A stretch of DNA of 37,545 bases, from contig CABMII010000081.1 in assembly GCA_902386255.1 (NCBI GenBank), positions 1-37,545 of the forward strand, in the 5' to 3' direction. Origin of the DNA: an uncultured archaeon. Lineage in GTDB: Archaea > Halobacteriota > Methanosarcinia > Methanosarcinales > Methanoperedenaceae. The notes under the pieces are model-generated. The model did no database searches. It was not told where the DNA came from and was given only the letters and a program-made list of their open reading frames with translations. Positions 160 to 15,865 of this stretch are shown here, one piece after another. Numbering within the stretch: position 1 is the stretch's first letter; each line of letters opens with the position of its first letter. The position numbers and the translations under genes were made by a program.

Positions 160-1056
160 ATGAAGAAAGAAAAAATCAGCCAACCAACACCGGAATCGCT
201 GCGGCAGGAGTTAGTAGAACATTTCCGTGAAAAGCGGGAGCTTCTACGGCAGCAATGGGTACAGCATATGACCGTCAAGGGATTGCTTGCCGGCCTGACG
301 CAGGAAGAGATCGAAACCGAGTCGATCACGATTTATGACACTGTCATTGTCTGTCTGGAAACCAGAGAATATGAAGGGGCAGAGACCTATGCAGCGCGCA
401 TGGCAGAACGCGGGGTGCTGCGCGGAATGACGACCGAGCAGATAATAGGCGGCATGCTCACATTGCGCGATGTGTACGGGCGCAGCCTGTTTGAGCGGTA
501 CCAGCGGGATATGGAACGGCTGTATGCGGCGTTGGACATTTACGAACCTGTTGCAAACAAGATTCTCTCAATCGTTGCACTCGGTTTCGTCGAAGAACGT
601 GAAAAAACCGTCCGCCAGGCCCAGGAGGCGATTCGTGAGCTATCAACCCCAGTATTGCAGGTTCAGGACCAGTTGCTCATCCTGCCGATTATCGGTGTTA
701 TCGATACCAACCGTGCCCGCCAGTTAACGGAGCAACTGCTGCGGACTATCCGCACGAAGCGCGCCAAGGTTGTGGTTATGGATATCACAGGTGTTCCTGC
801 CGTGGATTCCAAGATTGCCGGGCACCTGGTGCAGACCGTGGATGCATCGAAGCTCATGGGCGCGACGGTCATTGTTACTGGTGTATCTCCCGAAATCGCC
901 CAGACTCTCGTAACCCTTGGCGTGGATATATCCAAGATGAACACGGTAGGCGACCTCCAGGGAGGCATCGAGGTGGCAAACCAGTTTCTGGGCTACAGGG
1001 TTGTCAGGACTGAGCCTGAAACCGGGATGACTCATCCGGAAAAAAAGGTGCAGTGA
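160..1056 (+). CDS. rsbR: RsbR-type stressosome scaffold protein (RsbRD-like N-domain plus STAS)
   Basis: This 298-aa protein is a predicted co-antagonist and sensor subunit of a stressosome. Residues about 10-150 form an all-helical sensor domain of the RsbRD_N type, not the globin-like domain of Bacillus RsbRA. From about residue 162 a STAS domain begins (STPVLQVQDQLLILP), with the DITGVPAVDS loop. The serine at about residue 217 aligns with a known phospho-acceptor threonine in RsbRA. The start is ATG 160 behind GGGAGG. The gene begins a tight run rsbR-rsbS-rsbT-rsbX-kinase; rsbS follows after 3 bp. In the family model, RsbT phosphorylates RsbR and RsbS under stress and the complex then releases RsbT. 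The sequence looks closely bacterial, which suggests horizontal acquisition by this archaeon (inference). Confidence 0.9.
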   Translation: MKKEKISQPTPESLRQELVEHFREKRELLRQQWVQHMTVKGLLAGLTQEEIETESITIYDTVIVCLETREYEGAETYAARMAERGVLRGMTTEQIIGGMLTLRDVYGRSLFERYQRDMERLYAALDIYEPVANKILSIVALGFVEEREKTVRQAQEAIRELSTPVLQVQDQLLILPIIGVIDTNRARQLTEQLLRTIRTKRAKVVVMDITGVPAVDSKIAGHLVQTVDASKLMGATVIVTGVSPEIAQTLVTLGVDISKMNTVGDLQGGIEVANQFLGYRVVRTEPETGMTHPEKKVQ

Positions 1057-1059
1057 ACA

Positions 1060-1437
1060 ATGCTTGTCCCAATCCTCAAACAGGGCGATTATCTCATCGC
1101 TTCTATCCAGTCAGAGCTTAGCGATGCCGATTTGCTGAAATTGCGTGACGACCTGGTAAGGAGGGTAAGCGAGTTCCGTTCACGCGGCGTTATCGTGGAC
1201 GTCACCGTTCTGGATGTGATGGACTCGTTCGCTACCCGTACCCTGCGTGCCATGGCGCACATGATAATGCTTCGCGGGGCAGAGACAGTCATAGTCGGGA
1301 TACAGCCCGAGGTGGCGTTTTCGATGGTTCAGCTTGGCTTGAAGCTTGAGGGCGTGGAGACCGCGCTTGATCTGGAAGAAGGGCTGGCACTTCTTGATAA
1401 CCGGATAAAAAAAGGAGATAAAAAGCTTGGAACATGA
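1060..1437 (+). CDS. rsbS: RsbS, STAS-domain antagonist of the stressosome
   Basis: This is a single-domain STAS protein of 125 aa, the usual RsbS length. The motif VTVLDVMDSFATRTL carries Ser56, which aligns with the RsbS serine phosphorylated by RsbT. The C-terminal GVETALDLEEGLALL is typical of RsbS. The protein should form the stressosome core with RsbR and sequester RsbT until Ser56 is phosphorylated. The ATG lies 3 bp after rsbR. Its last 11 bp overlap rsbT, which implies translational coupling. Nothing looks degraded. Confidence 0.93.
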   Translation: MLVPILKQGDYLIASIQSELSDADLLKLRDDLVRRVSEFRSRGVIVDVTVLDVMDSFATRTLRAMAHMIMLRGAETVIVGIQPEVAFSMVQLGLKLEGVETALDLEEGLALLDNRIKKGDKKLGT

Positions 1438-1840
1438 AGTGTGTATCCCTGTCAGTTCCGAAATCGACATCGTTACAGCCCGCCAGAAAGGACGGCAGAT
1501 GGCCGCGCCGCTGGGTTTCTCAAACACGGAACTTACGCTTATCGCTACTGCAATCTCCGAGGTGGTGCGTAACATCGTGGAATATGCCAGGAGCGGCGAA
1601 CTCTGCCTGGACATTGTCCGGGAAGGAGACCGGCGCGGCATCGTCGTAACCGCACAGGACCGCGGGCCCGGGATTCCCAATATCAAGCTCGCCATGCAGG
1701 ACGGCTACTCTACAGGGAAAAGCCTGGGGCTCGGTCTTCCCGGAGCCAAGCGGCTGATGGACGAGTTTGAAATAGAATCAGAAGTCGGAAGGGGAACAAA
1801 AATCACTATGAAAAAATGGGTGCAAAAAAATGCACGATGA
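1427..1840 (+). CDS. rsbT: RsbT-like switch serine kinase (GHKL ATPase)
   Basis: The protein is 137 aa with a GHKL/HATPase_c fold: an N-box (SEVVRNIVEYA), a G1 box (DRGPGIPN) and a G2 region (GKSLGLGLPGAKRL). It should phosphorylate the serine of RsbS and serine/threonine of RsbR, then leave the stressosome to act on a downstream partner. The start is TTG 1427 with AAAGGAG (1411-1417) at normal spacing; an out-of-frame ATG sits at 1434. It overlaps rsbS by 11 bp and rsbX by 11 bp. The likely downstream partner is the RsbU_N domain on the kinase encoded two genes later (inference from context). Confidence 0.92.
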   Translation: MEHEVCIPVSSEIDIVTARQKGRQMAAPLGFSNTELTLIATAISEVVRNIVEYARSGELCLDIVREGDRRGIVVTAQDRGPGIPNIKLAMQDGYSTGKSLGLGLPGAKRLMDEFEIESEVGRGTKITMKKWVQKNAR

Positions 1841-2426
1841 CCGGTCAATCGAGTGGGGTTTTGCGGGGGTTCCTATCCGGGGAGAGACGGTCTCAGGCGA
1901 CAGCCACATTGTCAAGCCGGTTCCGGCTGGCTTCCTCATTGCAGCAGTGGACGGGCTTGGACACGGTCATGAAGCCGCCGCAGCTTCCAGGATTGCCGTT
2001 ACCACGCTTGAAACTTATGCGGGCGAGCCTGTTATAATGCTTGCCAGGCGCTGCCATGAGGCCCTGAAGGGAACGCGCGGGGTAGTGATGAGTATTGCAA
2101 AGCTAAATTTTGATAATAATATGATGACATGGCTCGGCGTGGGCAATATTGAGGGTTTGCTGCTGAAAGGGAATGCCATTTCACGTGAGAGACTACTGCT
2201 TCGCGGCGGGATACTGGGTTATCAGCTTCCGCCTCTCAGGGAAGCCGTAATTCCTTTTATGTCGTGCGACACGTTGATTTTCGTCACCGATGGCATTCGC
2301 AGCAGCTTTGACGGCGGGATTAAAATCTGCGACAGGCCGCAGCAAATTGCAGATGATATAATGGCGCAGTACAACAGGGGTACGGACGATGCACTGGTGC
2401 TGGTCGTGCGATATACATGCAAATAA
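1830..2426 (+). CDS. rsbX: RsbX-like PP2C/SpoIIE-type phosphatase
   Basis: This 198-aa single-domain PP2C-family phosphatase carries the metal-binding motifs AAVDGLGHGHEA near the N-terminus, FVTDGI near residue 152, and a C-terminal GTDDALVLVV. Size and position after rsbT match RsbX, which removes phosphates from RsbR and RsbS and resets the stressosome. It overlaps rsbT by 11 bp and the next gene by 10 bp. SpoIIE-type phosphatases also include RsbU, but that role is less likely because no RsbT-binding domain is attached. That domain sits on the next gene instead. Confidence 0.87.
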   Translation: MHDDRSIEWGFAGVPIRGETVSGDSHIVKPVPAGFLIAAVDGLGHGHEAAAASRIAVTTLETYAGEPVIMLARRCHEALKGTRGVVMSIAKLNFDNNMMTWLGVGNIEGLLLKGNAISRERLLLRGGILGYQLPPLREAVIPFMSCDTLIFVTDGIRSSFDGGIKICDRPQQIADDIMAQYNRGTDDALVLVVRYTCK

Positions 2427-4618
2427 AGAAAAACATGCTGGATGATTTAGAAAAACAATACGCTTCCGCACTGGCGGATTATCTTGCTGGAGGAGGGGAA
2501 ACGGCTCTTGAGCATGCATATGAGCTCGGGCGCAAAGCAATTGCGGATGGGCTTGGCATACTGGACCTGGCAACGGCTCACCAGAAAGCGCTTGTCCGGG
2601 TACTGCCGCGCGTGCCGCAGGAGAGCGCAGGAACCATAACGAAGGCAGCCCAGTTTTTCGCTGAGAGCATTGCGCCATTTGAAATGACATTCCGTGGGTT
2701 CCAGGAATCCATGGCCAGGCTGCACGAAGTGAACAGGACACTTGAACAGTCCGAGATGAAATTCCGCTCCGTCGTGCAGGCGGCGAATGACGCAATTATT
2801 TCAAGCGACAGCAATGGAAAAATTATCTCATGGAACAAAGGCGCACAAACCATTTTCGGATATGCTGAAAAGGAAGTGCTGGGAGAGTCTGTTACGATCC
2901 TGATGCCTGAAAAATATAGAGATATTCATTCAAGGTATTTTGAACACTTCAGGTCAACAGGCAAATCCAGGAATGAAGGAAGAACGCAAGAATCCAGCGG
3001 CCTCAGGAAAGATGGAAGTGAATTCCCTGTTGAGATATCCGTAACTACCTGGAAAACAGAAGAAGGAACATTTTTTACCTGTGTCCTTCGCGATATCACC
3101 GAACGCAAGAAAGCCCTGGAGAAAATAAGAGAGCAAGCCGCACTTCTCGACAAAGCGCAAGATGCCATTGCAGTCCGGGATCTGGAACACCGTATCATTT
3201 ACTGGAATAAAGGCGCGCAGAGCTTATACGGCTGGACAGAAGAGGAAGCTTTAGGCAAAAATGCCAATGAACTTCTATATAAAGAGCAATCGTCCGGCCT
3301 CATTGAAGCCAGGAAGACTGTCATCGCTGAAAGTGAGTGGAAGGGTGAGTTGAGGCAGGTAACCAAAGATGGTCATGAAATCATCGTCGATAGCCGATGG
3401 ACTCTTGTGCGTGATAACGAAGGGAAGCCAGAATCAATACTTATCATTAACACGGACATTACTGAAAAGAAAAAGCTTGAATCGCAGTTATTACGGGCAC
3501 AGCGGATGGATAGCATAGGCACACTTGCCGGAGGTTTAGCGCATGACCTTAACAATATGCTGACGCCAATAATGTTGTCGCTGCAACTGTTAAAAGAGAA
3601 AGCCAACGATGAACAGAGCCGGAAATTGCTTGATATCCTGGAAAATAATTCCCGGCGCGGAGCTGATTTAATAAAGCAGGTCATGTCTTTTGCGCGCGGG
3701 ATTGAGGGTGAACGCAATACTCTCCAGGCAAAACATATTATCGACGAAATCGAGAAGGTCGCAAAAGAAACGTTTCCAAAAGAAATTGAAATCCGAACAG
3801 ACATACAGAATGATCTCCTATCCATTGCAGGGGATGCCACGCAACTGCACCAGGTCATATTGAACCTGTGTGTGAATGCCCGCGATGCCATGCCGGATGG
3901 CGGAACTTTGAGCATCACAGCTTCGAATTTCTGTATTGATGAGAACTATGCACGGATGCATAACGAGGCAAAAATAGGTCCTTACATTTCAATCACAGTC
4001 ACGGATACCGGAACCGGCATTCCCCCCGGGATATTTGACAGGATTTTTGAGCCGTTTTTCACGACAAAGGAATTGGGTAAGGGCACAGGGCTTGGTCTTT
4101 CAACAGCACTTGGAATTGTGAGGGGCCACGGAGGATTCATTAATGTATATAGCGAAGTCGGAAAAGGAACAACATTCAGCGTATATTTGCCCGCGATTAA
4201 AACCGAAATGCAAAATGTTGAGGAGCGACAGCTTGAATTGTTCGGCGGGCAGGGTGAATTGGTTCTGGTTGCTGAAGATGAAGATTCAGTTCGTGATATT
4301 ACTGCTTCGACATTGGAAAAATATGGGTATAATGTGCTTGCAGCCAACGATGGTGCAGACGCAGTAGCATTGTATGCTAAAAATAAAAATAAAATCAATG
4401 TTATTCTTATGGATATGATGATGTCTGTTATGGATGGTATAGCGAGCATCCGGGCGATTCATAAAATTAATCCTGAAGCCAGAATTATCGCAGTCAGCGG
4501 ATTGGCAGAGAAAGACAGGCTTGCGAAGGTCGCAGATTTTGCAAATGTGTTTTTGCCAAAGCCTTACACTGCTGAGAAGCTGCTCAAGACCATACATGAG
4601 GTTCTGGGCGCGAAATAG
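2417..4618 (+). CDS. Hybrid histidine kinase with RsbU N-terminal domain, two PAS, HisKA, HATPase and receiver
   Basis: The protein is 733 aa. Residues 1-110 resemble the RsbT-binding domain of RsbU (AYELGRKAIADGL, then SIAPFEMTFRGF). Two PAS domains follow (about 114-235 and 238-355; NGKIISWNKGAQTIFGY and RIIYWNKGAQSLYGW). The HisKA H-box has His376 in GGLAHDLNNML. The HATPase shows DTGTGIPPG and GKGTGLGLS, and a C-terminal receiver has Asp666 in ILMDMMM and a KPY near the end. No output domain or membrane segment is seen. The inferred role is that freed RsbT binds the N-domain and tunes a phosphorelay. The start is ATG 2417, overlapping rsbX; ATG 2435 is possible. Confidence 0.9.
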   Translation: MQIKKNMLDDLEKQYASALADYLAGGGETALEHAYELGRKAIADGLGILDLATAHQKALVRVLPRVPQESAGTITKAAQFFAESIAPFEMTFRGFQESMARLHEVNRTLEQSEMKFRSVVQAANDAIISSDSNGKIISWNKGAQTIFGYAEKEVLGESVTILMPEKYRDIHSRYFEHFRSTGKSRNEGRTQESSGLRKDGSEFPVEISVTTWKTEEGTFFTCVLRDITERKKALEKIREQAALLDKAQDAIAVRDLEHRIIYWNKGAQSLYGWTEEEALGKNANELLYKEQSSGLIEARKTVIAESEWKGELRQVTKDGHEIIVDSRWTLVRDNEGKPESILIINTDITEKKKLESQLLRAQRMDSIGTLAGGLAHDLNNMLTPIMLSLQLLKEKANDEQSRKLLDILENNSRRGADLIKQVMSFARGIEGERNTLQAKHIIDEIEKVAKETFPKEIEIRTDIQNDLLSIAGDATQLHQVILNLCVNARDAMPDGGTLSITASNFCIDENYARMHNEAKIGPYISITVTDTGTGIPPGIFDRIFEPFFTTKELGKGTGLGLSTALGIVRGHGGFINVYSEVGKGTTFSVYLPAIKTEMQNVEERQLELFGGQGELVLVAEDEDSVRDITASTLEKYGYNVLAANDGADAVALYAKNKNKINVILMDMMMSVMDGIASIRAIHKINPEARIIAVSGLAEKDRLAKVADFANVFLPKPYTAEKLLKTIHEVLGAK

Positions 4619-7919: not shown

Positions 7920-9125
7920 TCATAGCAAACCCTTCCTGTTAACGTAGCCAGGTAAGAAGGACTCTGAACCTTTCGGCTTGAAGGATTTAAGCATCGCTTT
8001 GAACTGAGATGTTACCCTGTAGATCTTCCTCTTAGACCGTCCCAAGTCATCAGTCACAGGCTCAAGCAAATGTTTTTTCATCAGTTTGCGCCTTAAATTA
8101 TCCGTTTTTCGCGAAGACTCAAAAACCTCAACATTCTTTAGAAGATAAATTATATCTTCAGAAAGACCTGTCATACCAGCAATAGTTTTTACTATGTTCT
8201 CAAGGCTTACGTCATATCTCTTAACGCAGGCAGCGACCTTGTCGCGGTCCCTGAATTGTTTATGCACCCACCTTACAAGCCTTTCAGCATCCCCGGAAAT
8301 TTCATAGTTATGAAAAGAAAATATAGCATTGACTTCCTCTTTATAGATCGTAAACTCTATTCGCACCAAGCCAAACGTCTTTTGATAGAATTTAAGCTGT
8401 ATCTTATTTTCTTTGTATCCCCCATTTATACCATTAACGTAAACAGTATCAAAATCATCCGGGATTCTTGTGGATAAACCATTCGGTAACTCCACTTCGG
8501 TTTTACTCTTGTTCTCTGTTAAATAAAGCGTCGCTGATTGCGTATTGTATTTTTTGAAGGAAACGCCATCATTATCAAGGTAAGATGCTATTTCATCAAC
8601 ACAGGACGGTGAAACCTCAAAAGGTATCTCCATTTCGCTGACGCTGACCTTAACATCGTTCAGGTCCTCACCCCAGAACTTTTTGACGAGCTCCTTATAC
8701 TCATTTTTATAGTGTTCAATGACTGTATAAAGAGCTTCGATATAATCCCTTGCAGTAAGGGTACAATCCAGAGGCATGAAATTACTTTCATGGATAACAT
8801 GCTCAGGCGAAGGTCTTATTCCTTTAAAATCTTGCAAATATTCAATAATATTTACATAGACAAACATAGACCGAGCGCCTTTTAATCGCAAGTCGAAGAA
8901 TGTACAGTTTTTAGGAGCATAATGTAAAACATCTTCATAGCGGCCATTCTTTACCCTAGATCGCTTCATGGCATGAGGATGATGTGAAGCAAGATCGTCA
9001 TCAAAAGGATGATCCTGAGTAGAATACCAGCCATCATAGATGTGCAGACAGACCTTATCAATACAGACACGTTCCAGATCGAACGTTTTAAAATAAGTTT
9101 CGTCAAAAGGAATTATAGAAGGCAT
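7920..9125 (-). CDS. Large element protein, possible replication initiator
   Basis: I do not firmly recognise this 401-aa protein. Features seen: a His/Asp-rich segment (HPFDDDLASHHPHAMKRS, about residues 39-56), a middle region VKVSVSEMEIPFEV, and KIQLKFYQKTFGLVRIEF, which resembles the Y-K...RiE strand pattern of rolling-circle replication proteins of filamentous phages and plasmids. The C-terminal third is basic and helical with a winged-helix feel (TDNLRRKLMKKHLLEPV). The ATG directly abuts the stop of the 102-aa gene, so the two are co-transcribed. Context (integrase, small regulators) makes a replication role plausible but unproven. No signal peptide or membrane segment. Confidence 0.6.
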   Translation of the reverse strand: MPSIIPFDETYFKTFDLERVCIDKVCLHIYDGWYSTQDHPFDDDLASHHPHAMKRSRVKNGRYEDVLHYAPKNCTFFDLRLKGARSMFVYVNIIEYLQDFKGIRPSPEHVIHESNFMPLDCTLTARDYIEALYTVIEHYKNEYKELVKKFWGEDLNDVKVSVSEMEIPFEVSPSCVDEIASYLDNDGVSFKKYNTQSATLYLTENKSKTEVELPNGLSTRIPDDFDTVYVNGINGGYKENKIQLKFYQKTFGLVRIEFTIYKEEVNAIFSFHNYEISGDAERLVRWVHKQFRDRDKVAACVKRYDVSLENIVKTIAGMTGLSEDIIYLLKNVEVFESSRKTDNLRRKLMKKHLLEPVTDDLGRSKRKIYRVTSQFKAMLKSFKPKGSESFLPGYVNRKGLL

Positions 9126-9434
9126 TTAACCGGCCCTCTGTAATTCAGCCTCTTCCTCTATCTCTTTATCAAGGTTCCCATTGAAGACCTCAGCGTTCTT
9201 CTTGATAAAGGCAAGCATTTTTGCAGCCTGTTTATAGGTTATGCGTACCCATTTCTTCTCCTTCCAAGTACCCGGCCCTAAACCTATACCCACTCTCGCG
9301 GAGAAGGTCCTAGTTCCATCATCGCTTTTGATCTGGGACCCGAGGACAAACGTTAATACACCGTCTACGTCAAGCACTGGATCGTTATTGGCGTATTTCG
9401 GAAGAGATTTAGCATCCTCGCCTTTCTTGATCAC
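9126..9434 (-). CDS. 102-aa element protein, unknown function
   Basis: It starts at GTG 9434, which overlaps the stop of the upstream 43-aa gene and has a GGGGGTGA ribosome-binding site. It contains a beta-rich middle (VLTFVLGSQIKSDDGTRTFS, then ARVGIGLGPGTW) and a helical, acidic tail (KEIEEEAELQRAG). Small beta-rich proteins with acidic tails next to replication genes are sometimes single-strand DNA-binding proteins; that is only a suggestion here. It lies in an operon with the 43-aa gene upstream and the 401-aa gene downstream. Confidence 0.6.
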   Translation of the reverse strand: MIKKGEDAKSLPKYANNDPVLDVDGVLTFVLGSQIKSDDGTRTFSARVGIGLGPGTWKEKKWVRITYKQAAKMLAFIKKNAEVFNGNLDKEIEEEAELQRAG

Positions 9435-9777: not shown

Positions 9778-10803
9778 TCAGCTTTTATCCATAAGTTCAT
9801 TAACTCTTTTCTCTATCAATACCTGGATCATCTTTTCATCAAACATATCCGCATTTTTTTCTAATTGATCTATGCGTTCTTTAAGATCCTCATTCTCAGC
9901 TGCTAGCTTCTGGAACTGCATCGATGCATCAGCAATCTTAAGAGATTCTGCTTGTTTCAGGTTTGCGACTGGCTGACGTGGTATGTCCGCACCTGCCATT
10001 TCTAATGTCGCATTAATCACGTCATCGTCTACAACATGGCTGTATCTGGCCAGCATCTTACTGTCATCCTTCCAGCCTAATTTTTTCTTGGTAATCTGAT
10101 CTTGATAACCTCTTTTTAACATGTCCACAGCCTGAGCATGTCTAAATTTATGTGCTGATATTGGTTTTGTGATTCCCGATTTTTTCCCTATCTTTTTCAA
10201 CATCTCCCATACCGAGACATCAACAACGGGAAAAAGTCTGTCCTTTTTATCGAGAGCGGAATAGGTTATATGGTTTCTAATGTATTGCGCCGAAAAAATA
10301 CATAAAACTGGTCTATAATCCTCCCCGGTCTTAGACTGGTGCAACGGGATAATCATACCTTTATCTGTTTCTTTAACTTCTTCAACTGTTATAGGAAGCA
10401 CTTCATTAATCCGCCCTCCAGACTCAAACAAAAGAGCGATTAAAGCCTTATACATTGGCGATTCTGTGGTTTCTATCATCAGATTCACATCTTCCACAGT
10501 TAAGATGTCATTTCTATTCAGCGGGGTTTTTACTGCTTTTATCTTCAAATGATTAACTATTTCAGGCTTCCCATACCACTTAAACAAGGTCTTAAAAACA
10601 GTCTTACGCAACTCGATTGTAGCTTTAGAATAGTCCTTTTCAAGTGAAAGAATATAATTAGTTACATCCTCTTTAGTCCATTGCTCTAAAGGCTTGTATT
10701 CATTAGCTGCTTTCAAAATAGAAGTATAATTTTTTATTGTATTTGCAGATGCACCGTTAAGCTTTTGATGTTTCAGGAACTCTTCATACAACACATAAAC
10801 CAC
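9778..10803 (-). CDS. int: Tyrosine recombinase/integrase
   Basis: This 341-aa phage-integrase-family protein has an N-terminal SAM-like core-binding domain (1-90) and a catalytic domain with Arg131 (ESGGRINEV), Lys158 (SKTGEDYR), His218-x-x-Arg221-His222 (HKFRH), Trp244 and the nucleophile Tyr254 (ARYSHV). Residues about 275-341 add a coiled-coil tail, which is less usual. The catalytic set is complete, so the enzyme may be active. It should integrate or excise the 6-10.8 kb element. It lies at the element's right edge, divergent from pdxS. The start is GTG 10803, with alternative GTG/TTG codons just downstream. No flanking tRNA was found. Confidence 0.92.
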   Translation of the reverse strand: MVYVLYEEFLKHQKLNGASANTIKNYTSILKAANEYKPLEQWTKEDVTNYILSLEKDYSKATIELRKTVFKTLFKWYGKPEIVNHLKIKAVKTPLNRNDILTVEDVNLMIETTESPMYKALIALLFESGGRINEVLPITVEEVKETDKGMIIPLHQSKTGEDYRPVLCIFSAQYIRNHITYSALDKKDRLFPVVDVSVWEMLKKIGKKSGITKPISAHKFRHAQAVDMLKRGYQDQITKKKLGWKDDSKMLARYSHVVDDDVINATLEMAGADIPRQPVANLKQAESLKIADASMQFQKLAAENEDLKERIDQLEKNADMFDEKMIQVLIEKRVNELMDKS

Positions 10804-13225: not shown

Positions 13226-15865
13226 ATGAGTGAAAGGGAATGGACGGAGTATAGTTCAGCAAAGAATTTCCTGCTCTCCTCGGTATTCTGGCTGGTTCTG
13301 TTCACGACATTCGGTTTTATCCTTGCGATCAAGTTTTTTGCGCCTGAGTTCCTTGGGCAAACCTCATTCCTGACATTCGGGCGCGTGCGCCCCATGCACG
13401 TAAACGGCGTGGCTTTTGGCTTTCTTTCAACCGGGCTCATCGGAGCGGCTTATTATATCATTCCCAGGATTTCGGGAACGAAGCTCTATAGCGAAAAACT
13501 CGGGAATATCACTTTTTTACTGTGGAACCTTGCTATTGCCTCGGGAACCATCCTTCTGGCTCTGGGATACACGCAGGCCAGGGAATATGCCGAGTATATC
13601 TGGATAATCGATGTGGCGATACTGGCAACGCTGCTCTTGATAGGATATAATATAATTAAAACCATACTCGCAAGGACAGAACGCAAATTGTACGTCTCTA
13701 CATGGTACATCATGGGGACGTTTCTCGTATTTCCCATAGTATATTTCATAGGCAATGTGATGTGGCATCCGGATACAGGGTCGCTTGCCGGGACCGAGGA
13801 TGCAGTTTTTAACTGGTTCTACGGGCATAATGTCCTCGGGCTCTGGTTCACCACCCTTGGTATCGGCGCATGGTATTATCTAGTTCCCGTCATCATAAAG
13901 CGCCCCCTTTACAGCCACCTGCTTTCAATGATAGGGTTTTTTTCCATCGTGTTCGTTTATACCGGCGTTGGCGGGCATCATCTCCTGCAGGCGCCCATCC
14001 CTGAATGGTTAAAAACCGTGGCAGTCGTGAACAGCGGTTTGATGATGATTCCGGTTCTTGCATTTATCACAAATATCGGTCTTACAATGCGCGGGAGCTG
14101 GAAGCATTTTATCGAGAGTATTCCGTTGCGCTTCATCCTCATCGGCTGGTTTTTCTATTTGCTCGTATCTGTCCAGGGCACTTTCCAGGCCATGCGCGAT
14201 ACAAATATGTACCTGCATTTCAGCCAGTGGCCTGTTGGTCATGCCCACCTTGCCCTTCTTGGTAGTTTTGGGCTGCTTGTATTTGGAACTGTATATTTCC
14301 TGATCCCGAGGGTAACAGGGAAAGAAATTTATTCAAAGCGGCTGATGAGCTATCATTTCTGGCTCACTGTTCTTGGTTTTATCCTTTTTTTCTCCGCAAT
14401 GACCATAATGGGACTTATCCAGAATGCAGGCTGGATAAGAAATATTACAGTTCCTATCGTACTGCTCCAATTGAAGCCGTTTTTCATTCTCAGGGCAATC
14501 GGCGGGGGCACGATAATCCTGGGCCAGTATGTGTTCTTTTATAATATCTGGAAAACGCTGGGAAATAAATCCGCGCCTGCGCCCGAACCGCATGAACCAA
14601 TCGCGCCCCGGAAACGGGAAACCCAAAAATACAGGGAAAGCGTTCCGCTGTTCGCTATTGGTGGTCTTGGGTTGTTCTTATCCATGGTTTTTATTGTTGT
14701 ACTTCTTCCGCATCTTCTAATGCAGTATGAACCTACCGAAATATCACATCCTTACTCCGAAGAACAGGCCCACGGCAGGGAAATATACAAAAGCATGGGG
14801 TGCGTTTACTGCCATTCCCAGTTCGTAAGACCGCAGGACTGGGGTATCGGGAACACGTCAATGCCAGGGGATTATTACTACGACCGGCCGCATCTTCTCG
14901 GAACCGAAAGGACGGGTCCTGATCTTGCGCAGATAGGAGGAATAAGACCTACGCTGTGGAATATCCAGCATCATAAGAACCCGCGTTCCGTAAGCCCCGG
15001 CTCCATTATGCCGAATTTCTCCTTCATCCCTGACCAGGACCTTCTTGACCTTGAAGCCTATATCCAGAACCTCGGAGGCAGGAACCTTGAAACCCAGAAT
15101 TTCCAGCCTCTCGTTCCAGAGCCTTACTCCGGGCAAAAAAACCCTTATGCTGATATTATCATAAATGTTAATTCAAGCAACGAGAGCATGGCCGCTTATG
15201 CAGGCCTGGTAGCTGAAGGAAAGACTCTGTTTGTCCAGAGATGCCTCCCCTGCCACGGTGCTTCGGGGAACGGACAGGGCCCGTATGCGCGTCATGTGAA
15301 TACACATCCAGCAAACCTCAACGAAAGGATTTCGAATTTCCCGGGCGTGGATTACCAGTTCTGGAGGGTCATGGAGGGCGTTCCGGGCACTGCCATGCCC
15401 ACGTGGCGGCTTTCTTTGACCGAAGATACCATTTGGAAGATTATCTCTTATGAAAGAACGTTTGTGGACGGTATCGTGAGAGTGGTTCCGGGCGATTTTT
15501 CCGACAGCGAGGCTGAAGAATTTGCTAAAAAGGGCATAACATCGCCTATCCTGCAGGACGATGCCAATTTCACGGAAGGCGGGAAGCTCTTTAACCTCTA
15601 TTGCGCCCAGTGCCACGGCGCGGATGGGCAGGGCGACGGACCCGCAGCTTCTTATATCAATCCCGAACCAGCAAATTTCACCGAGACCAGCAATGATTTC
15701 ACAATGGAGGGGCAGTGGTTCTGGAAAGTGAGCGAGGGTGTGGAGACGACCAACATGCCCCCATGGAAATATGTGCTTTCAGATGATGAACGCTGGAAGG
15801 CGATATACTATATCCAGAAGAATTTCTCGGCTCCCGGTGTATTCGATGCTAAATGGAGGTCATAA
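13226..15865 (+). CDS. ccoNO: Fused cbb3-type oxidase CcoN-CcoO with two further cytochrome c domains
   Basis: The 879-aa protein has a 12-helix CcoN part (about 1-450) with heme b/b3 ligands His58, His339 and His341, CuB ligands His201, His251 and His252, and Tyr245, matching the cross-linked His-Tyr spacing of C-family oxidases (44 residues). A CcoO part follows: one helix (about 472-500), CVYCH (526-530), RTGPDLAQIGG and SPGSIMPNF. Two extra cytochrome c domains carry CLPCH (673-677, MPTW) and CAQCH (793-797, MPPW). It predicts O2 (or possibly NO) reduction with three c hemes outside the membrane. Oddity: the cbb3 glutamate in the TFEGP motif is Gln317 here (VSVQGTF). Next come a CcoS-like gene and a small membrane gene. 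Confidence 0.93.
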   Translation: MSEREWTEYSSAKNFLLSSVFWLVLFTTFGFILAIKFFAPEFLGQTSFLTFGRVRPMHVNGVAFGFLSTGLIGAAYYIIPRISGTKLYSEKLGNITFLLWNLAIASGTILLALGYTQAREYAEYIWIIDVAILATLLLIGYNIIKTILARTERKLYVSTWYIMGTFLVFPIVYFIGNVMWHPDTGSLAGTEDAVFNWFYGHNVLGLWFTTLGIGAWYYLVPVIIKRPLYSHLLSMIGFFSIVFVYTGVGGHHLLQAPIPEWLKTVAVVNSGLMMIPVLAFITNIGLTMRGSWKHFIESIPLRFILIGWFFYLLVSVQGTFQAMRDTNMYLHFSQWPVGHAHLALLGSFGLLVFGTVYFLIPRVTGKEIYSKRLMSYHFWLTVLGFILFFSAMTIMGLIQNAGWIRNITVPIVLLQLKPFFILRAIGGGTIILGQYVFFYNIWKTLGNKSAPAPEPHEPIAPRKRETQKYRESVPLFAIGGLGLFLSMVFIVVLLPHLLMQYEPTEISHPYSEEQAHGREIYKSMGCVYCHSQFVRPQDWGIGNTSMPGDYYYDRPHLLGTERTGPDLAQIGGIRPTLWNIQHHKNPRSVSPGSIMPNFSFIPDQDLLDLEAYIQNLGGRNLETQNFQPLVPEPYSGQKNPYADIIINVNSSNESMAAYAGLVAEGKTLFVQRCLPCHGASGNGQGPYARHVNTHPANLNERISNFPGVDYQFWRVMEGVPGTAMPTWRLSLTEDTIWKIISYERTFVDGIVRVVPGDFSDSEAEEFAKKGITSPILQDDANFTEGGKLFNLYCAQCHGADGQGDGPAASYINPEPANFTETSNDFTMEGQWFWKVSEGVETTNMPPWKYVLSDDERWKAIYYIQKNFSAPGVFDAKWRS

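Follow-up and report, generated by a model that had tools for sequence, protein, structure and literature searches.

In Bacillus subtilis, RsbU carries an N-terminal RsbT-binding domain (RsbU_N) and a helical linker ahead of a PP2C phosphatase that feeds the RsbV-RsbW-sigma B route, and in Moorella thermoacetica RsbU_N controls a diguanylate cyclase, MtG (PMC12143880). Histidine kinases (HKs) with RsbU_N have been reported in the stressosome operons of some Proteobacteria, one of them having been modelled (2025 eLife, PMC12143880, Fig. 5), and archaeal modules of RsbR, RsbS, RsbT and RsbX (RSTX) were mentioned by Heinz et al. (2022, PMC9237108), who also listed kinase/receiver downstream modules, some of them with RsbU_N. 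Here, we analysed a 37,545-nucleotide (nt) stretch of DNA (contig CABMII010000081.1 of assembly GCA_902386255.1, hereafter the window) from an archaeon assigned to Candidatus Methanoperedens, near the start of which an RSTX set is followed by a hybrid HK that begins with RsbU_N. We consider it probable (about 0.75) that the genes make up a stressosome operon and act through a two-component output: RsbT freed by stress would bind RsbU_N and the linker and alter the kinase activity, and RsbX would reset the system.

Like B. subtilis RsbU, the window kinase starts with RsbU_N and a helical linker, and like MtG it joins RsbU_N to a non-phosphatase effector, which is however an HK in place of the phosphatase or the cyclase. 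With the RSTX-D1-D2 operon of Vibrio vulnificus it shares a four-gene RSTX core placed directly before a kinase/receiver module and no sigma factor in the operon, whereas V. vulnificus has a haem globin RsbR and a D1 without RsbU_N, and the window has RsbU_N and no apparent RsbR haem ligand. A further likeness is to proteobacterial RsbU_N kinases (loci L149 and L151-L156), which also carry RsbU_N on an HK, lie mostly beside RsbT or RsbX and in several cases have a PAS-HK-REC body; the window differs in its archaeal host and in having one RsbU_N protein per operon, while several Pseudomonadota loci have a tandem pair. The kinase type is thus already known from the published archaeal RSTX modules and the proteobacterial RsbU_N kinases, and the archaeal example is new; no paper joining stressosomes and Methanoperedens was found in a literature search that covered few subscription papers.

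The RSTX core and the RsbU_N kinase

Five plus-strand genes lie in a tight run at 160-4618 of the window and encode RsbR, RsbS, RsbT, RsbX and a 733-amino acid (aa) kinase (Table 1), with overlaps of ~10 nt at each of the S/T, T/X and X/kinase joins and a gap of 3 nt between R and S. A T-rich gap of 77 bases separates the kinase gene from cofC, and the upstream context of the operon is cut, since the contig starts only 160 nt before RsbR. The best solved matches of RsbR and RsbS were the Listeria stressosome RsbR (7b0u, 1.3e-31) and RsbS (6qcm, 5.4e-26), and RsbX matched the Moorella (3zt9, 1.3e-17) and Bacillus (3w40, 9.5e-15) structures and the SpoIIE domain (3.6e-11). RsbT, a GHKL serine kinase by family (Pfam HATPase_c_2, 1.4e-12), had anti-sigma F factors of the same GHKL ATPase family as its best solved matches (SpoIIAB, 7.9e-10). 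RsbR ends in a STAS domain (Pfam, 3.2e-16) and RsbS is a single one. By alignment to the Listeria and Bacillus proteins (T171/T205 type and S59 type), the phosphorylation sites were placed at S217 and T249 of RsbR and S56 of RsbS; position 217 is S/T and position 249 is T in 21/21 rows, S56 is invariant and the DSF motif kept in 37/37, and the metal-site Asp residues of RsbX are kept in 34/34. RsbR and RsbS STAS proteins, a GHKL kinase and a PP2C phosphatase are therefore encoded together with the phospho-sites present, which agrees with the complete RSTX set read here by the initial annotation.

The RsbR N-domain (~10-150) is helical and globin-like, and its AlphaFold2 (AF2) model, of moderate confidence, matched the RsbR N-domain 2bnl in Foldseek with a target-normalised TM-score of 0.69 and an E-value of only 0.03. 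A haem-binding RsbR globin was considered on account of this predicted fold and rejected: apart from one in the first helix, the N-domain has no invariant His, which leaves it without an apparent haem ligand.

RsbU_N was matched on kinase residues 13-89 with 35.9 bits against the Pfam curated cut-off of 25.5, and by phmmer residues 10-101 matched the N-domain structure of B. subtilis RsbU (2j70, 8.6e-4), so that the RsbU-type start of the kinase, also proposed earlier, passed its hidden Markov model (HMM) check. The domain was found once in the whole genome (E = 1.1e-9), and B. subtilis alone gave a match in a control set of 14 genomes. AF2 modelling with seven sequences gave helices at 2-26, 28-43, 48-65 and 71-102, then a PAS fold, with low confidence at 89-123; because Foldseek with the N-terminal model returned PAS matches only, the fold assignment of RsbU_N relies on sequence and helix pattern. 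Pfam found no RsbU-type C-terminal PP2C/SpoIIE domain in the kinase, and HisKA with H376, HATPase_c and a C-terminal REC with D666 stand in its place, i.e. the PAS-PAS-HK-REC hybrid kinase with an output-free receiver that had been described. The top Foldseek matches of PAS1 were FixL haem PAS domains (32-37% identity), and H171, at what we take to be the position of the FixL proximal His, is present in 6/7 close kinases; PAS1 may be a haem gas sensor.

Table 1. Genes of the operon and domains of the kinase, in window coordinates
Feature	Position	Strand	Remarks
RsbR	160-1056	+	ATG start, GGGAGG Shine-Dalgarno before start
RsbS	1060-1437	+	begins 3 nt past RsbR
RsbT	1427-1840	+	TTG start, GGAG Shine-Dalgarno-like sequence before start
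RsbX	1830-2426	+	single-domain PP2C feedback phosphatase
Hybrid histidine kinase with N-terminal RsbU_N	2417-4618	+	Pfam domains
RsbU_N (kinase 13-89)	2453-2686	+	predicted four-helix bundle, last helix entering linker
PAS1, FixL-like (kinase 116-227)	2762-3097	+	Pfam PAS 1.3e-34 across two stretches
PAS2 (kinase 244-352)	3146-3472	+	Pfam
HisKA (368-428, H376) and HATPase_c (472-593)	3518-4195	+	Pfam, alignment
C-terminal receiver REC (616-726, D666), no output domain	4262-4594	+	Pfam, alignment

Gene order and predicted contact residues of RsbT and RsbU_N

RsbU_N occurred in 28/60 genomes, i.e. the window's own and 59 relatives, and in 24/394 genomes of the phylum. Loci were taken as the neighbourhoods of the RsbU_N matches and their genes called with purpose-built HMMs; as every archaeal RSTX operon found here came through RsbU_N, the following counts show the partners of RsbU_N and not every archaeal stressosome, and the sample is unable to reveal RSTX kinases without RsbU_N. 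A same-strand RsbT adjoins RsbU_N in 38 of the 47 archaeal loci with a called RsbU_N open reading frame (ORF), and RsbU_N and an HK share one ORF in 35. The remaining loci encode RsbU_N-GAF or RsbU_N-PAS proteins, a truncated RsbU_N-HisKA_2 (L145) or a frame broken at a contig end (L081); in L052 and L059, both with RsbU_N-GAF, an HK lies two genes further on. PP2C was found in none of the RsbU_N proteins put to Pfam, and an RsbX-derived HMM matched 0/47 of the RsbU_N ORFs. The exact order R-S-T-X followed by RsbU_N-PAS-PAS-HK-REC recurs in L062-L064, L066, L067, L069 and L072, and followed by RsbU_N-HK-REC with one PAS in L076 and L077, the R-S-T-X-hybrid kinase order being kept in nine further genomes of the genus; R-S-T(-T)-X with simpler RsbU_N-HK kinases reaches further families within the order and the phylum.

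Several of these loci have unusual gene content. Two adjacent RsbT-like proteins, the second scoring lower, are encoded in L053, L055, L060, L061 and L138-L142, which belong to two archaeal families, and a 328-aa ORF in L056 (8957-9943) fuses RsbT-like and RsbX domains; a stand-alone RsbT and an RsbR that carries five PAS domains are encoded beside it. RsbU_N-GAF proteins of 360-364 aa (L053:9288-10382 and similar) have no kinase domain, lie in complete R-S-T-T-X operons and carry ~105 C-terminal residues without domain assignment. In the Methanoperedens assembly of L006 (3986-4300), some 40 codons from the start of rsbR, with an in-frame stop, run in frame into the kinase from residue ~102; rsbS, rsbT, rsbX and RsbU_N appear to have been deleted here, and the kinase and its receiver are left.

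In B. subtilis, RsbT R19 and R23 and RsbU E24, Y28 and R91, the last with RsbT D92, are reported contact residues (PMC12143880). RsbT R19 was invariant in all 39 rows with a letter at this position, R23 was R/K in 38/39, and kinase E28, the equivalent of RsbU E24, was E in 40/41 rows and D in one. Kinase position 93 and RsbT position 92 were paired as R-D in 22/35 loci and Q-G in 5/35; by corrected mutual information, this column pair ranks 4th among the 9179 between the two proteins. Several observations weigh against the predicted binding: RsbU Y28 is not conserved, being E in the window kinase; the register of RsbU R91 is ambiguous, with kinase R93 opposite it in one alignment and Q85 in another; the 93/92 covariation amounts to 2-3 independent changes on the RsbT tree, with which a test of independent pairs cannot reach significance; and the near-relative loci L070, L071 and L079 have RsbU_N-HK without an adjacent RsbT. 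The R91-D92 salt bridge, which had looked conserved at first, was dropped as proof of contact because of the ambiguous linker register and the too few independent changes, and the 93/92 covariation is kept as a lead only.

Outside Archaea, RsbU_N was found in 9/399 sampled genomes of one bacterial phylum, Pseudomonadota, as RsbU_N-PAS-HK-REC in L149, L151, L154 and L156 and as RsbU_N-HK in L152 and L153, with RsbT or RsbX present in most of these short loci. The gene-order search suggested earlier thus found the pairing in bacteria as well as in archaeal relatives, and with RsbU_N above its cut-off and its co-occurrence with RsbT conserved, neither a missing RsbU_N nor a kinase generally absent from the relatives' operons was encountered. 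What fell away was the reason given for the arrangement, namely that the output was rewired for want of an archaeal sigma factor. RsbU_N kinases beside RsbT occur in bacteria too (PMC9237108, PMC12143880, L149-L156), which makes the wiring a module type that existed already and not an archaeal answer to missing sigma factors; the RSTX set, the RsbU_N hybrid kinase and the conserved co-occurrence with RsbT stood.

Proposed signal path, alternatives and candidate receivers

In the path that we favour, RsbT would be kept bound by a sensor core of RsbR and RsbS; upon stress, it would phosphorylate this core, be released and bind the kinase at its dimeric RsbU_N and the linker, shifting the HisKA dimer geometry and hence the activity as kinase or phosphatase. 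A second input would come from the two PAS domains, RsbX would dephosphorylate the core and so reset it, and the phosphate acceptor would be the REC domain of the kinase itself and/or a separate stand-alone receiver acting through protein contact. We infer the direct RsbT-kinase contact, together with the assembly of the core complex, the release of RsbT, the sign of its effect and the downstream target; control of kinase autophosphorylation by RsbT, as initially suggested, is plausible.

The classical route has no visible counterpart in the host genome (2.6 Mb, 96% complete), in which the only two STAS domains both belong to this operon, RsbT alone matches HATPase_c_2 above the cut-off and RsbX alone matches SpoIIE. 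As the STAS pair, the RsbT-like ATPase and the PP2C of this genome are thus all accounted for by RSTX, RsbU, RsbV and RsbW are not visible, and neither is sigma-B partner switching through the latter two. To our knowledge, sigma factors are wholly absent from archaea; the conserved archaeal operon of RSTX and an RsbU_N kinase thus isolates the kinase branch of sigma-free stressosomes, opens this branch to in vitro tests with five proteins, and suggests how methane oxidisers that depend on nitrate or metals might signal stress.

RsbT might instead phosphorylate the kinase on Ser/Thr, RsbU_N merely serving dimerisation, as Ser/Thr phosphorylation was proposed for V. vulnificus D1 and for downstream kinases without RsbU_N (Heinz et al., PMC9237108) and the Moorella cyclase was described as phosphorylated by RsbT (PMC4976288). 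We regard this as unlikely, since RsbU_N is present here and E28 is near-invariant, as a binding surface would predict. Another reading, in which the kinase would be a PAS sensor in its own right that only happens to sit in this operon, RsbU_N being a vestigial dimerisation domain and the stressosome having its output elsewhere, is also rather improbable: the genus does have many close kinase paralogues without RsbU_N, and L006 retains its kinase after losing the stressosome genes, but the gene order and the RsbU_N-RsbT pairing persist across families despite differing kinase bodies (PAS, GAF or direct HK), and no other candidate target of RsbT is visible in the genome.

The module is of a bacterial type, as it would be had contamination or mis-binning put a bacterial operon into an archaeal genome; we give this next to no weight. 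Cdc6/ORC, RadA and CofC are encoded on the same contig, orthologous operons with kinases of 65-77% identity occur in several independent archaeal assemblies, and other families of the order have further operons in single-contig genomes. As the nearest kinases, at this identity, come from Candidatus Methanoperedens and other archaeal records, and together with these contig genes, the host is assigned to the archaea, and specifically to Candidatus Methanoperedens, a methane-oxidising member of Methanosarcinales. An archaeal 16S gene was also looked for in the host genome, with no match.

A published census describes most archaeal response regulators as lone receiver proteins or as REC joined to PAS/GAF, which probably act by protein contacts (PMC5847659). 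The host genome has 18 receiver-domain matches, several in frames short enough for stand-alone receivers. In one relative (G003, L072), a 140-residue receiver starts ~5 bases past the kinase; the same receiver lies ~80 bases past the kinase in L006 and ~4 kb downstream on the opposite strand in G008 (L077). Its nearest relative in the host genome is an orphan receiver (G000:C98:3965-4375; 70% identity over 125 residues) adjoining an FAD oxidoreductase, relatives of which (76-80% identity) flank the kinase in L063, L067 and L069 in a different orientation. These positions are suggestive of the orphan receiver as a candidate phosphate acceptor of the kinase. A dedicated Hpt phosphorelay was rejected, the genome having one Hpt, in a 647-aa frame taken as CheA, an unconfirmed assignment; a conserved downstream gene as output was rejected as well, since the genes after the kinase vary (CofC, epimerase, FAD oxidoreductase, receiver).

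More tentatively, and with rather less than even odds, Halobacteriota stressosomes may as a class signal via histidine kinases, the RSTX operons found through RsbU_N having as the partner of RsbT a two-component or GAF/PAS effector but in no case a phosphatase, and the Methanoperedens chain may end in the same orphan receiver acting by protein contact.

Neighbouring genes in the window

Further along the window, a single 879-aa ORF (13226-15865) combines CcoN-like, FixO-like and two cytochrome c regions of a cbb3-type oxidase, in a genus of anaerobic methanotrophs. A XerA-like tyrosine recombinase of 341 aa (9778-10803) adjoins two ORFs (7920-9125 and 9126-9434), neither of which has a confident family match; the recombinase and the two ORFs possibly constitute a mobile element between the operon and the remaining contig.

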